Assembly: GCF_030577135.1 (NCBI RefSeq)
Contig: NZ_JAUIRR010000002.1
Coordinates: forward strand, 1 to 64,000
DNA length: 64,000 nt
From: Sulfurimonas sp. hsl 1-7
GTDB lineage: Bacteria > Campylobacterota > Campylobacteria > Campylobacterales > Sulfurimonadaceae
Direction of reading: 5' to 3'
A program made the translations under genes and the position numbers. Within the stretch, counting starts at the first letter, position 1; each line of letters opens with the position of its first letter. The notes beneath the pieces were generated by a model that was not told the origin of the DNA, did not search any database, and worked only from the letters and a program-made list of their open reading frames with translations. Shown here one piece after another: positions 36,644 to 40,755 of this stretch.

Positions 36644-36817
36644 ATGAAAAGAATTAACTGTAGAAGATGTGAATATTATTTTGTAACTTGGGAAGCGAAT
36701 CAACCCCATGGATGTAAAGCATACGGATTTAAGTCTAAACAGCTTCCATCTATGGTTGTGTTTTCAAGCAGTGGTGTCCCTTGTAGCCTCTTTCAAGAAA
36801 AACCTAGGGCCAAATAA
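36644..36817 (+). CDS. 57-aa Cys-containing protein, probably zinc-binding
   Basis: MKRINCRRCEYYFVTWEANQ begins the protein; GCKAYGFKSKQLPS and SSGVPCSLF follow. Cys6, Cys9, Cys24 and Cys47 could bind one zinc. I recall similar short proteins in Geobacter-type bacteria, with no known function. A TACAAT -10 at 36613-36618 and a weak AGAAAG ribosome site support the ATG at 36644; the frame is open back to 36584, but that part would run through the hairpin. Its end overlaps the convergent UPF0306 gene by 14 bases. Confidence 0.7.
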   Translation: MKRINCRRCEYYFVTWEANQPHGCKAYGFKSKQLPSMVVFSSSGVPCSLFQEKPRAK

Positions 36818-37217
36818 CCTTTTTACCAAACCCCAAACGATTATCAGTCAATTTAAAAAAATCAACTTCAATATTCCAAAGTTTCGGATTTAAAGCCAAA
36901 GCGTAAGGGAACTGCTTAAAGTATAAACGGCTGAACTCTTTTGAGCTGTTGGCTTTAAACATCCCTCTAAACTGTAGACCTTGGATCTTTCCAACCTCTT
37001 TTGTTTCAAGTAAAATATTTCCCGCTACTTTATTGTTTTGTCGTATCTGTTCTATATGCAGTGTATCATCACTGCTTGCGACGACAAAGACTCTTTTTGC
37101 TTTATCATACGCATAAAAGAGGCTGCAAGCACTCACAGATTCATGACCACATGTAGCAAGTGTCATGACATGATGCTGCTCTATAAACGCCTCTATCTTT
37201 TCTAAATCTTGTGTCAT
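36804..37217 (-). CDS. UPF0306-type flavin-fold protein (PNPOx-like)
   Basis: 137 aa with a split-barrel FMN-binding fold: HHVMTLATCGHESVSACSLF near the start, VFVVASSDDTLHIEQIRQN, and GIKIQ-type strand KIQGLQFRGMF. Similar to the YhbP/UPF0306 family; activity unknown. Its ATG overlaps the stop of the small gene upstream (TAATG, 37215-37219), which itself overlaps the C-S lyase. All lie downstream of ovoA in one run, so this may be part of the ovothiol operon. Confidence 0.78.
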   Translation of the reverse strand: MTQDLEKIEAFIEQHHVMTLATCGHESVSACSLFYAYDKAKRVFVVASSDDTLHIEQIRQNNKVAGNILLETKEVGKIQGLQFRGMFKANSSKEFSRLYFKQFPYALALNPKLWNIEVDFFKLTDNRLGFGKKVIWP

Positions 37218-37435
37218 TAGATCGTATGAAGAACTTTTTCCAATGCTACCGCATCAGTGATATTGCGTTTGTTTAACATCATTTGACCGATATCATCCTC
37301 TTTTAGAGCATCAAAAATATCATATGGATTTGTCATATTGTAGTAACTTTTCATAAACTCCAAAGTTATTTCAAAATTGTCATTTCGTACGCTGTATTGT
37401 TTATGCTCTTTATATGCATCCCAATCAATGTTCAT
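37217..37435 (-). CDS. Small unknown protein in the ovoA operon
   Basis: 72 aa from ATG 37435, with AAAGGA nine bases upstream. The sequence begins MNIDWDAYKEHKQYSVRNDN and includes MTNPYDIFDALKEDDIGQMM. It is acidic and helical, with no Cys or membrane segment. It overlaps the end of the C-S lyase gene by 11 bases and the start of the UPF0306 gene by one, so it is embedded in the operon. A longer frame to 37465 lies inside the lyase gene and is unlikely. Confidence 0.65.
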   Translation of the reverse strand: MNIDWDAYKEHKQYSVRNDNFEITLEFMKSYYNMTNPYDIFDALKEDDIGQMMLNKRNITDAVALEKVLHTI

Positions 37436-38609
37436 TCTCTTTTTTCCTTTGTAAAGCATTTTCAAGCTGTGTAATTATTTGCGCCATTTTAGCAGATGAG
37501 ACGGCAAAATTCAAGCGCATATAACCACTCCCCTCTTTCCCAAAACTAAGCCCTGCATTGAGTCCCAGTTTTGCCTCTTTTACAAACCATTCCCGTAATT
37601 CTTTATTGCTTAGATTCATTTTCCTGCAATCCAACCATGCCAGATAGGTACCCTCGATTGGTGTGAGTTCAATATACTCTTTATATTTTTTCGATAGTTC
37701 AAGCAACATCTCATAGTTTTTATAAAGATGCAGTTTTAACTCTTGAAGCCACTCTTCACCGTTGTTATAAGCACTCTCAAACGCAACATGGCTCAGTACA
37801 CTCCCTTGTGCAAAATGGACGTTATCATACGCTTTTTTAAACTGCTCCCGTAGGTTTTTGGGTACTACAATACTACTTACTGCAAAACCGGCCATATTAA
37901 ATGTTTTTCCCACACCGATAGCCGTTATCACTCTTTCATCAGCAGCTTCCAACGAAGTAAGAGGAATATGTTTGCTTGGTTCATATACAAGGTCACAATG
38001 TACCTCATCGGCAAAAATAATAATATTGTTCTCTTCACAAACTTTTAACAAAGATTCTAGTTCCTCTTTTTTCCAAACACGACCAACCGGGTTGTGTGGG
38101 GAAGAGAGTAAAAGGAGTTTTGTATTTTTTGTGATCTTTGCCTGTAAATCTTCAAGGTCAAAAGTATATGTGCCGTCCTCTAAACATTTGAGAGGATTTT
38201 TCACTACTTTTCTCTCCATATGTACCGGTGCATGAAAAAAAGGTGGATAGATAGGAGTTTGCACAATCACCTCATCCCCCTTATTTGAAAAAGCCTCGAT
38301 CACAACCTGCATAGAAGCTACAACAGAGTGGGAATAAAACATCCCCTCAAGATCGTACTCTATCCCATGATGTTTCCTCATCCATCTTATCTGTGCTTCA
38401 AAAGCGCTTTTTGGAAACTCTTCATATCCAATTACAGGGTGCTCAAGCCTTTTTTTGACACTCTCCAACACAAAATCGGGTGTATCTATATCCATGTCAG
38501 CTACCCAGGCAGGAAGCACATCTTCGGTTCCGAAAAGCTCCTCTCTTAAAGTGTATTTTTCTGCGTTCGTACCACTTCGATCGGCAGAACTTGTAAAGTC
38601 ATAACTCAA
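37425..38609 (-). CDS. PLP-dependent C-S beta-lyase (MalY/PatB family), candidate OvoB
   Basis: About 394 aa, fold-type I aminotransferase. Seen: the family N-terminus SYDFTSSADRSGTNAEKY, LPAWVADMDIDTPDFV, SPHNPVGRVW, FADEVHCDLVYEP and the PLP-binding Lys in GVGKTFNMAG (about residue 235). I start at TTG 38609 because GGAG lies six bases before it and the N-terminus then matches PatB/MalY. The start overlaps the ovoA stop in TTGA (38606-38609). OvoB, which cleaves 5-histidylcysteine sulfoxide in ovothiol synthesis, is a PLP lyase of this kind; the coupling to ovoA makes that role likely. Cystathionine beta-lyase is the alternative. Confidence 0.85.
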   Translation of the reverse strand: MSYDFTSSADRSGTNAEKYTLREELFGTEDVLPAWVADMDIDTPDFVLESVKKRLEHPVIGYEEFPKSAFEAQIRWMRKHHGIEYDLEGMFYSHSVVASMQVVIEAFSNKGDEVIVQTPIYPPFFHAPVHMERKVVKNPLKCLEDGTYTFDLEDLQAKITKNTKLLLLSSPHNPVGRVWKKEELESLLKVCEENNIIIFADEVHCDLVYEPSKHIPLTSLEAADERVITAIGVGKTFNMAGFAVSSIVVPKNLREQFKKAYDNVHFAQGSVLSHVAFESAYNNGEEWLQELKLHLYKNYEMLLELSKKYKEYIELTPIEGTYLAWLDCRKMNLSNKELREWFVKEAKLGLNAGLSFGKEGSGYMRLNFAVSSAKMAQIITQLENALQRKKENEH

Positions 38610-40717
38610 ATTTTTCTCCAAACACTTGCTTCTGAAATCGTGTGTTGATATTTTCTCTTTGTTTCAGGGATCACAAACTCCAGATCCTCTACTCCTACTA
38701 GTTCAAACTGATCTTTTAAAATCTGTTTCAAACTTTCCAATGTACTCACTTCTTTGCCTTGGCTGTCATAATATCCGCCAAGCCACAACTCTTTACTTGT
38801 TGATTCTTCCTGCCATGTATACGGGGATGTAATGATGAGTATCCCCTCATCGTTTAACCTGTTTGGGATATCCTCTAAAAAAAGTTTAGGATTATACAAT
38901 CTATCTATGAGATTTGTTGCAAGGATTAGATCATACCCTTTAAAACGGGGCTTTAAATTACATGCATCACCCTGCCAAAAACTCACTTTATCTTTGAGTG
39001 TTTCATATCCTAACTCTTCAATAGTTACAATTTTTTCTTGAACTATCTCACCCTCTTGTTTTACCTTATAGGCTATTTTCCCATCCTCTTGGAGTTTACT
39101 CCCAACACCTACAAAACGAACAGAGAAGTCTATCCCCTCTACGCTGTTAAAAGTTTTTGCCAGCTCGTAAGTTGCCCTTCCTGTTGCACAACCTAGATCA
39201 AGTGCTTTTTCTTTATTTATTGCATATTTTTTTGCGAGTTTTGCACAAGAGATTGCAAAGTTTTCAACTCCAAAATGAGTCTCTCCGTATTGAAACTCAC
39301 AATACTGCGAAACTAGTTCATCCGTCTCATAAATATTTTCATCACCCTCCCCGTTTTGAGAGATTACATATCGAAAACCAGCATGCTGAAAGAAATGTCT
39401 TCTAAAAGCATAACGGGAATGCTTCATAATAAGGTTTCCCGTACTTGCAAAAGAGGAACCGAGTATCAAAGCGTGTTTTTCATCAAAAGTGGGTGTTGAA
39501 AAATCATCATATGCTTCATATGGTGTAAATCCTTCAAATCCTCGAATAGGCGTACGGCTCCATTGCCACACGTTCCCTATAAGATCATAAATAATACTTC
39601 CGTTTTTAAGAGAAAAACTAAACTGATCGACAGGACAAGATGAAGCATAGTGGTAAAAGTTAATATTTGCACTGCTTTCATGCAACTCAGGAATATCTTT
39701 GAGGTTAGATAATTTGTAAATAGCCATATACTCAGCTTCACTCGGCAAAGTGTAATTTCTTCCATCCTTTTGCGATTTATAATTACAAAATGCCTCAGCT
39801 TCCAATCCATTAACATCTACAGGCCAATTAAGCGGGAGCGGGATTATCTTTGTCAATGCTCTGTAACTCCATCGATCTCCATCTTTATTCCAGAAATGGG
39901 GATGTTTTGCACCACTTCGTTTTAAAAATTCTCTCCCCTCTTCACTCCAATACTCATCTTTTTCATATCCGTCCGCTTCTACAAACTCTAAAAACTCTCC
40001 GTTGCTTACCAGATATTTTGCAACTTCAAACCCTTTTACATCCTCTTTGTAACTTCCATACTCATTATCCCAACCATATAAGTTATGTTCATAAGTTTTC
40101 CCTAGGTGAACTTCAGAGCCATCAATATGGATCATCTCGTTTTTTACATTTTTTCCACTATATTCACAGATATTAAAAGTGTCATTTTCTAAAATAGCTT
40201 CTATAGGCATTTGACGGTGTAATACAGAAGATGTTTCTATGTGGATACGCTCATGCTCAATCCCCATCAAAATAATCCACATAGGGGAGTTTTGTGTAAT
40301 AGGCAGAGTAAATTCCAATGTATCGATCAGAGTATTCACTAACTCTCGCACTTTTACTCTGTATGCCCGAACCTCGTCAACTTTCGGCCATTTATAGTTT
40401 GACTCATCCATATCATCCCAGTTCATCTCATCAACACCTATGGCGAACAGTGATTCAAACTCCGGATTTATCCTTTGTTCAATTATCTTCATCAAAATAA
40501 GTTTATTAATAAAAAAAGTAGCAGTATGACCAAAATAAAAGATCATAGGGTGGCGTGTAGGTTCAGATTTTTTATAAAAAACCGTTTCATCTTTTAAAAC
40601 TTCAAAAAGCTTTTCAAAAAGATCATAACTGTTGTTGAAATATCTCTTTATCTCCTGCCGTTTATCCTCTATGCTATCACCATCCAAAGTTGGTGGAAAA
40701 AGACTCAATCTACTCAC
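38606..40717 (-). CDS. ovoA: 5-histidylcysteine sulfoxide synthase with methyltransferase domain (OvoA)
   Basis: About 703 aa from GTG 40717 (GAGGGG upstream), starting MSRLSLFPPTLDGDS; the frame is open to 40750 but the extension lies over the promoter. Domains: DinB-like with RHPMIFYFGHTATFF and the iron motif HERIHIE (H155, H159, E161, HxxxHxE); an FGE-sulfatase-type domain (about 195-455) with VWQWSRTPIRGFEGFTPYEA and FQHAGFRYV; and a C-terminal SAM methyltransferase with LDLGCATGRATYELAK (about 506-521). OvoA joins cysteine to histidine with O2, and its methyltransferase end finishes ovothiol A, a thiol antioxidant. The fused three-domain form is complete here. Confidence 0.93.
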   Translation of the reverse strand: MSRLSLFPPTLDGDSIEDKRQEIKRYFNNSYDLFEKLFEVLKDETVFYKKSEPTRHPMIFYFGHTATFFINKLILMKIIEQRINPEFESLFAIGVDEMNWDDMDESNYKWPKVDEVRAYRVKVRELVNTLIDTLEFTLPITQNSPMWIILMGIEHERIHIETSSVLHRQMPIEAILENDTFNICEYSGKNVKNEMIHIDGSEVHLGKTYEHNLYGWDNEYGSYKEDVKGFEVAKYLVSNGEFLEFVEADGYEKDEYWSEEGREFLKRSGAKHPHFWNKDGDRWSYRALTKIIPLPLNWPVDVNGLEAEAFCNYKSQKDGRNYTLPSEAEYMAIYKLSNLKDIPELHESSANINFYHYASSCPVDQFSFSLKNGSIIYDLIGNVWQWSRTPIRGFEGFTPYEAYDDFSTPTFDEKHALILGSSFASTGNLIMKHSRYAFRRHFFQHAGFRYVISQNGEGDENIYETDELVSQYCEFQYGETHFGVENFAISCAKLAKKYAINKEKALDLGCATGRATYELAKTFNSVEGIDFSVRFVGVGSKLQEDGKIAYKVKQEGEIVQEKIVTIEELGYETLKDKVSFWQGDACNLKPRFKGYDLILATNLIDRLYNPKLFLEDIPNRLNDEGILIITSPYTWQEESTSKELWLGGYYDSQGKEVSTLESLKQILKDQFELVGVEDLEFVIPETKRKYQHTISEASVWRKI

Positions 40718-40740: not shown

Positions 40741-40755
40741 TTATAATCATTATAT
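40741..40755. promoter_or_regulatory. PerR-box-like palindrome at the ovoA/pgeF divergent promoter
   Basis: TTATAATCATTATAT matches the Bacillus PerR box TTATAATNATTATAA at 13 of 14 fixed positions. The same bases form two facing -10 boxes: TATAAT on the plus strand (40742-40747, for pgeF) and TATAAT on the minus strand (40749-40754, for ovoA). The palindrome may therefore be only two promoters back to back. The plus-strand -10 is exactly six bases from the pgeF ATG (leaderless geometry). Confidence 0.5.

Follow-up and report, generated by a model that had tools for sequence, protein, structure and literature searches.

A probable two-gene ovothiol operon in Sulfurimonas sp. hsl 1-7: ovoA overlaps the gene of a PatB-family C-S lyase

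Introduction

Can the whole pathway to ovothiol A be encoded by only two genes, and does the second of them supply the OvoB step? This question is raised by a gene pair in a stretch of 64,000 nt (hereafter the window) from Sulfurimonas sp. hsl 1-7 (contig NZ_JAUIRR010000002.1), in which ovoA is followed by the gene of a pyridoxal phosphate (PLP)-dependent C-S lyase. Ovothiol is a sulfur-containing antioxidant that is known from other organisms. The three steps of its formation and their enzymes are established, according to the accessible parts of three articles (PMC12631010, PMC9103826, PMC10903977). Judging from the respective families, the N-terminal iron enzyme of the window OvoA would combine cysteine, C5 of histidine and O2 into 5-histidylcysteine sulfoxide, the lyase would strip the cysteinyl backbone with the aid of its PLP lysine K235 and release 5-thiohistidine (the OvoB step), and the C-terminal methyltransferase of OvoA would then methylate 5-thiohistidine to ovothiol A. 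On the evidence presented below, it is highly probable that the two genes constitute a translationally coupled ovothiol operon and that the lyase performs the OvoB step.

As such, the locus is a solid but largely unremarkable instance of a pathway already known, the enzymes and the occurrence in Sulfurimonas having been reported already. The accessible text of one review describes a survey of bacterial OvoA and OvoB (Brancaccio 2021) that includes Sulfurimonas, lists two anaerobic bearers, one of them Sulfurimonas hongkongensis, names Erwinia tasmaniensis as the source of OvoB and refers to an Ovo operon of Erwinia (PMC9103826). No title or abstract opening on the coupled pair in Campylobacterota was found in a literature search that left most subscription papers outside its reach, and a search combining ovoA with Sulfurovum gave no match. 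With the gene pair, chemolithotrophic Campylobacterota would have the complete ovothiol pathway in a compact two-gene form, and the lyase, which is widespread, is a candidate OvoB hidden under the annotation name 'PatB family C-S lyase'. Indeed, the RefSeq annotation of Sulfurovum mangrovi already labels ovoA and a neighboring 'PatB family C-S lyase'.

Results and discussion

The window encodes a complete OvoA that overlaps the lyase gene

The larger gene was confirmed to encode a complete OvoA, as judged from its sequence. Its product can be extended to 714 aa if an in-frame ATG at 40750 is used as the start (Table 1), and within this frame it scored far above the cut-offs of both halves of the NCBIfam models, that is, 643 bits for TIGR04344 ovoA_Nterm (cut-off 400; residues 20-462) and 323 bits for TIGR04345 ovoA_Cterm (cut-off 170; residues 474-713). 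The Pfam domains DinB_2, FGE-sulfatase and methyltransferase follow each other in the expected order, residues 15-714 align to the solved OvoA 8khq (E 6.8e-247), which we take to be the enzyme of Methyloversatilis thermotolerans, and the methyltransferase part matches OvoM 9bxl (E 1.9e-92). Counted from the first residue behind the GTG (702 residues in all), the HxxxHxE motif reads H154-E-R-I-H158-I-E160. H154, H158, E160 and Y402 are invariant in a ten-row alignment, and Y402, which aligns with Y406 of 8khq, is presumably the catalytic tyrosine. With its three-part architecture, the motif and the full-length alignment, the window protein shows no difference of kind from 8khq. It is apparently the only copy, because the source genome contains a single FGE-sulfatase match. 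An ergothioneine route was rejected, since EgtD had no match in the source genome and the EgtB model reached 175 bits on the window OvoA, below its cut-off of 360.

Table 1. Positions of the gene pair, its parts and further features mentioned in the text (positions without a locus handle refer to the window)
Feature	Position	Strand	Remarks
ovoA, predicted 5-histidylcysteine sulfoxide synthase / 5-thiohistidine N-methyltransferase	38606-40717	minus	GTG start, 703 aa
Sulfoxide synthase part (DinB_2 + FGE-sulfatase fold, HxxxHxE)	39365-40693	minus	TIGR04344, Pfam
S-adenosylmethionine (SAM)-dependent methyltransferase part, OvoM/OvoC type	38612-39331	minus	TIGR04345; 9bxl
PatB-family PLP C-S lyase, candidate OvoB	37425-38609	minus	TTG start, 394 aa; PLP lysine K235
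TTGA overlap	38606-38609	minus	TTG, lyase start; TGA, ovoA stop; four bases in both frames
GGAG	38616-38619	minus	six bases before the lyase TTG, within the 3' end of the ovoA coding sequence
Region downstream of the lyase	36804-37465	minus	directly behind the lyase; 82-aa open reading frame without family match and a YhbP-like gene
G176 fusion gene	L059:3377-5218 (G176:C11)		late motif GGDNASRG
PF03747 gene near ovoA	L119:14875-15789
PF03747 gene near ovoA	L037:7826-8896
Second OvoA-like protein of G234	L060:3193-4614 (G234:C77)		473-aa frame

The completeness of OvoA bears on the question of the end product, which might be another thiohistidine, such as a selenium analogue, a conjugate or 5-thiohistidine in its free form. 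According to the accessible part of one article (PMC12631010), Bacteroidota possess an N-acetyltransferase for 5-thiohistidine, and the methyltransferase part of OvoA is lost or shortened in some relatives. However, the window OvoA retains the full methyltransferase part above its cut-off, and OvsA (71 bits) and SenA (158 bits, cut-off 420) score far below OvoA. An end product other than ovothiol A is therefore unlikely.

The stop codon of ovoA and the start codon of the lyase gene share the sequence TTGA, and a GGAG motif shortly upstream is, by its position, likely to serve the lyase as a ribosome-binding site. The conservation of both ovoA and the lyase gene in several phyla excludes reading frames that arose by chance. 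The original prediction had described a three-part OvoA with an HxxxHxE motif and a TTGA overlap with the lyase, and both of these descriptions agree with the sequence in full. Searches for further signals revealed nothing striking: there were 18 promoter-like sites (15.9 in shuffled sequences), 4 terminator-like sites (2.9 in shuffled sequences) and three inverted repeats.

The lyase gene is linked to ovoA in many genomes

If the lyase serves the OvoB step, its gene might be expected to accompany ovoA elsewhere. Among 298 genomes of Campylobacterota, 67 matched OvoA, one of these (G058) with a fragment only. The lyase gene was found directly behind ovoA in 35 of the 67 genomes and behind an insert in 3 more (G126, G186, G200). 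These values are based on a frame-by-frame scan of 57 of the 67 loci, which gave 35 adjacent, 1 near and 21 without the lyase, and 2 further near cases were recognized by their places; for nine genomes of genus g27 and for G058 with its fragment, the assignment relied on place only. Lyases with at least 50% identity to that of the window occur in 24 genomes of the phylum, all 24 of which also match OvoA.

A scan of named genomes yielded at least 589 matched stretches, 580 of which encode relatives, and the best 80 loci were kept. In these 80, the lyase gene was adjacent in 42, near in 5 and not found in 26, and 7 were untestable at contig ends; one of the 42 adjacent genes (L171) encodes a distant PLP enzyme with 188 bits on the PatB model (cut-off 340). 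The linked loci include those of Nitrosomonas, Nitrosospira, Methylobacillus, Sulfuricella and Geomonas. Among the named OvoA loci listed, from which very near records may have been omitted, the closest was that of an Epsilonproteobacteria symbiont bin (72%), and those of Sulfurimonas mostly reached 64-68%. The overlap is conserved along with the adjacency: a script applied to 35 junctions in related loci detected a start codon of the lyase frame at a four-base overlap in 22, at a one-base overlap in 7 and at neither in 6. When the neighbors at 107 loci were clustered, the lyase was present in 62 and the next most shared gene in 22. A third conserved operon gene was thus rejected, as none is as widespread as the lyase and the next shared neighbors follow family synteny.

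The ovoA-lyase junction is also an insertion site in Sulfurimonas and its relatives. The inserts comprise cytosine DNA methylases (L102, L106), DUF4145 plus ORF6N (L101), a 1020-aa protein without Pfam match (L095) and a GGDEF gene on the opposite strand (L117). Despite these inserts the lyase gene keeps its orientation and remains downstream of ovoA.

To assess joint presence and absence, 228 genomes of the family were analyzed, of which 139 were good, with thresholds of E 1e-20 for OvoA and E 1e-40 for the lyase. OvoA was present in 207 and the lyase in 199 of the 228, counts that include fragments, with many partial matches in fragmented genomes. The lyase was found in 197 of the 207 OvoA-positive genomes, but in only 2 of the 21 OvoA-negative ones. 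The nine lyase-less genomes that are not listed were deduced by exclusion from the full lyase-positive list, and one unlisted OvoA-less genome was taken to be G010, which is OvoA-less in the phylum set and matches the lyase only at E 6e-23. For the good genomes, the lyase was present in 133 of 135 with OvoA and in none of the 4 without it, which fall in two genera (Fisher's exact test, 1e-6; this value overstates independence because the genome rows are related). A PatB/MalY-type cystathionine beta-lyase would be expected to occur independently of OvoA, which is not what the four good OvoA-less genomes show. Based on the conserved adjacency, the conserved overlap, the joint presence and absence and the fold of the solved OvoB (see below), the coupled lyase very probably performs the OvoB step.

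The lyase forms an OvoA-associated branch of the PatB family

The lyase passed the PatB model TIGR04350 with 516 bits (cut-off 340), a model that is also passed by a lyase from an OvoA-less genome (L081). It is the only copy in the source genome at E 1e-20. A structure model built from 13 sequences (mean predicted local distance difference test score, pLDDT, 85) superimposed on 5z0q, 'Crystal Structure of OvoB', with a VIA Z of 47.7 over 376 residues (root-mean-square deviation 2.0, 29% identity). The lyase shares the PLP fold and the PLP lysine with 5z0q, and this lysine, K235, is present in every aligned lyase row.

Two trees were calculated from lyase frames trimmed to their last 400 residues, a quick tree of 115 rows and a careful tree of 65 of these rows; both exclude L001, L009, L098, L123, L171 and the loci from L172 upward. 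In the quick tree, the clade of the window lyase comprises 48 rows, all from OvoA genomes, with a support of 97 (Shimodaira-Hasegawa-like approximate likelihood ratio test, SH-aLRT). In the careful tree it comprises 18 rows, 16 linked to ovoA and 2 from OvoA genomes, with a support of 100/100. OvoA-less lyases were absent from this clade in both trees (0 of 12 and 0 of 10, respectively). The reference structures were distributed over other clades of the careful tree: 5z0q groups with the lyases of Geomonas, which are themselves linked to ovoA (96/91), and 4dgt, 6qp3, 8juj and 3dzz group with six lyases from OvoA-less genomes (100/91).

The order of these clades differed. In the careful tree 5z0q falls outside a set in which the PatB references stand together with the window clade (95/81), and the quick tree gave the opposite order with a support of 85. 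In approximately unbiased (AU) tests, neither a single clade of OvoB and all OvoA-associated clades (p 0.108) nor one that unites the PatB/cystathionine-lyase set with the window clade (p 0.202) was rejected. Several PatB-family lineages are thus seen to be tied to ovoA, which would fit repeated recruitment and one old origin alike. The window lyase is, by its sequence, a branch of its own within the PatB family that is associated with OvoA, not demonstrably an ortholog of Erwinia OvoB. The original prediction had called for a phylogeny of the lyase against OvoB and MalY/PatB. In both trees the window lyase stands outside the cystathionine beta-lyase group, so that the grouping which would have refuted the prediction did not occur, with the reservation that the AU test allows a joint clade. 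The proposal that the lyase is of the OvoB type holds for the PLP fold of 5z0q and the tie to OvoA; the lyase belongs to a clade other than that of 5z0q. Likewise, of the proposal that two coupled genes encode the whole pathway, the complete OvoA and the coupled lyase stand; orthology to Erwinia OvoB, ovothiol A as the product and the suggested peroxide scavenging in a low-oxygen or vent bacterium have the rank of hypotheses.

One alignment column, position 349, appeared to follow the association with OvoA. Both the window clade and 5z0q have Gly there, but none of 11 PatB/cystathionine-lyase rows does; 6qp3, 4dgt, 8juj, 3dzz and Escherichia coli MalY, which resemble the window lyase in fold, have Ala or Ile instead. 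For this comparison, 20 OvoA-less lyases were added to the 12 of the first tree set. Over all rows, Gly349 occurs in 104 of 117 from OvoA genomes versus 3 of 32 from OvoA-less ones, the exceptions being 12 Ala and one Val on the OvoA side and L066, L070 and L071 on the OvoA-less side. In rows outside the discovery set, many of which are close relatives of discovery rows, the values are 62 of 68 versus 0 of 22. The position was rejected as a proof of function, as a sign test with 4 pairs cannot reach significance, and the Gly349 shared with 5z0q is treated as a lead only.

Could the lyase be a general beta-lyase for cystathionine or cysteine-S-conjugates, with a gene that lies behind ovoA by coincidence and a product that serves ovothiol formation only incidentally? 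The assignment to the PatB family by TIGR04350, the best structural matches, which are PatB-type C-S lyases, and the joint clade allowed by the AU test would all fit such an enzyme, and OvoB itself is termed a broad-specificity beta-lyase in the accessible part of one article (PMC12631010). However, the gene is absent from all four good OvoA-less genomes of the family, the OvoA-less rows included in either tree lie outside the window clade, and MetX and a sulfhydrylase already cover methionine synthesis in the host. We regard a general lyase as quite unlikely.

Several observations weigh against the reading of the two genes as an ovothiol operon. In 29 of the 67 OvoA genomes of Campylobacterota the lyase gene is not beside ovoA, and the same is true for the loci of Shewanella and Photobacterium; nor is it among the listed genes of the ovoA plasmids of Rahnella and Ewingella, for which the gene table is incomplete. 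The lyase is missing from ten OvoA-positive genomes of the family, including the good genomes G449 and G499, and two genomes have the lyase but no OvoA match (G298, 65% complete; G456, 82% complete). The structure model is nearer to PatB-type lyases (Z 51.7 to 4dq6) than to 5z0q, to which the sequence identity is low, and 5z0q takes the outside position in the careful tree. Finally, the tree-corrected test of position 349 was not significant, with only 4 independent pairs on supported branches.

The host genome leaves room for ovothiol formation

The source genome (2.28 million bases in 15 contigs) encodes MetX (437 bits, cut-off 331) next to an O-acetylhomoserine sulfhydrylase (584 bits, cut-off 495). 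A role of the lyase in methionine synthesis was rejected because two full-length Cys/Met-metabolism PLP genes lie elsewhere in the genome; one is an O-acetylhomoserine sulfhydrylase above its cut-off, and the other remained below the cut-offs of all 25 models listed out of 56.

Since OvoA needs O2 and the host may live anaerobically, the gene pair might be intact yet silent or unused. According to the accessible part of the review, the bearers found in a survey include a Sulfurimonas that is strictly anaerobic (PMC9103826). However, both genes have been retained across the family at the frequencies given above, and the source genome encodes a cbb3-type oxidase subunit I (690 bits, cut-off 583), which makes the use of O2 plausible. 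An unused gene pair is thus very improbable, and formation of ovothiol by the operon is clearly preferred. Ovothiol could be a main small thiol of the host, because the sole GSH-S_ATP match in the genome is RimK and GCS2 has no match there (a search that did not extend to the other glutamate-cysteine ligase family).

A sister genus carries a separate methyltransferase

In genus g5 of the same family, the OvoA proteins of G133 (487-aa frame) and G176 (474-aa frame) end before the methyltransferase, and the lyase still lies behind the shortened ovoA in both genomes. G176 contains a TIGR04345 methyltransferase (311 bits) and an ADP-ribosylglycohydrolase domain (PF03747, 124 bits) in one frame of 613 aa. 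This fused protein was matched in 20 of 41 g5 genomes, nine of them over the whole length. Only in G176 is the frame open, the other eight having stops between abutting frames, and a widespread fusion of an ADP-ribosylglycohydrolase with OvoM was therefore rejected (1 of 9 open). The two genes are neighbors on one contig in six more genomes and lie on two contigs in G368; in four genomes a methyltransferase or a fragment of it was found, and in G355 the methyltransferase gene and the ADP-ribosylglycohydrolase-family gene are two bases apart. Altogether, an OvoM-type gene lies beside an ADP-ribosylglycohydrolase-family gene in 15 of 41 g5 genomes (L059, L188-L207). Against this lead, no match to the fused protein was found in 21 of the 41, G133 included, so that the missing methyltransferase of G133 was not found elsewhere.

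The pairing may point to a thiohistidine chemistry beyond ovothiol A. A literature search for OvoM or ovoselenol with ADP-ribosylglycohydrolase listed only matches off the subject. A more far-reaching reading has two parts, namely that PatB-family lyases were recruited repeatedly to the OvoB step, each with a small residue at position 349 and a start-stop overlap, and that in the sister genus an ADP-ribosylglycohydrolase-family protein, paired with a separate 5-thiohistidine methyltransferase and in one genome fused to it, catalyzes an undescribed further step of thiohistidine metabolism. That both parts hold together is doubtful, albeit less so than any of the alternatives discussed above.

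Further variants and neighboring genes

PF03747 genes were also found near ovoA in two further lineages (Table 1); at 2 of 107 loci, this may be chance. A plasmid search for the ADP-ribosylglycohydrolase domain gave no match at E 1e-20. The plasmid-borne ovoA genes of Ewingella and Rahnella (L184, L185) have a site-specific integrase gene upstream. The YhbP-like gene downstream of the window lyase scored 104 bits, under the cut-off of 176, and YhbP-like genes recur in the family synteny (clusters read by eye). In six loci (L049, L052, L053, L054, L055, L058) the OvoA frames are about 620-660 aa long, with the methyltransferase part shortened or diverged. G234 encodes a second OvoA-like protein (35% identity) without the methyltransferase part, in addition to a full OvoA.

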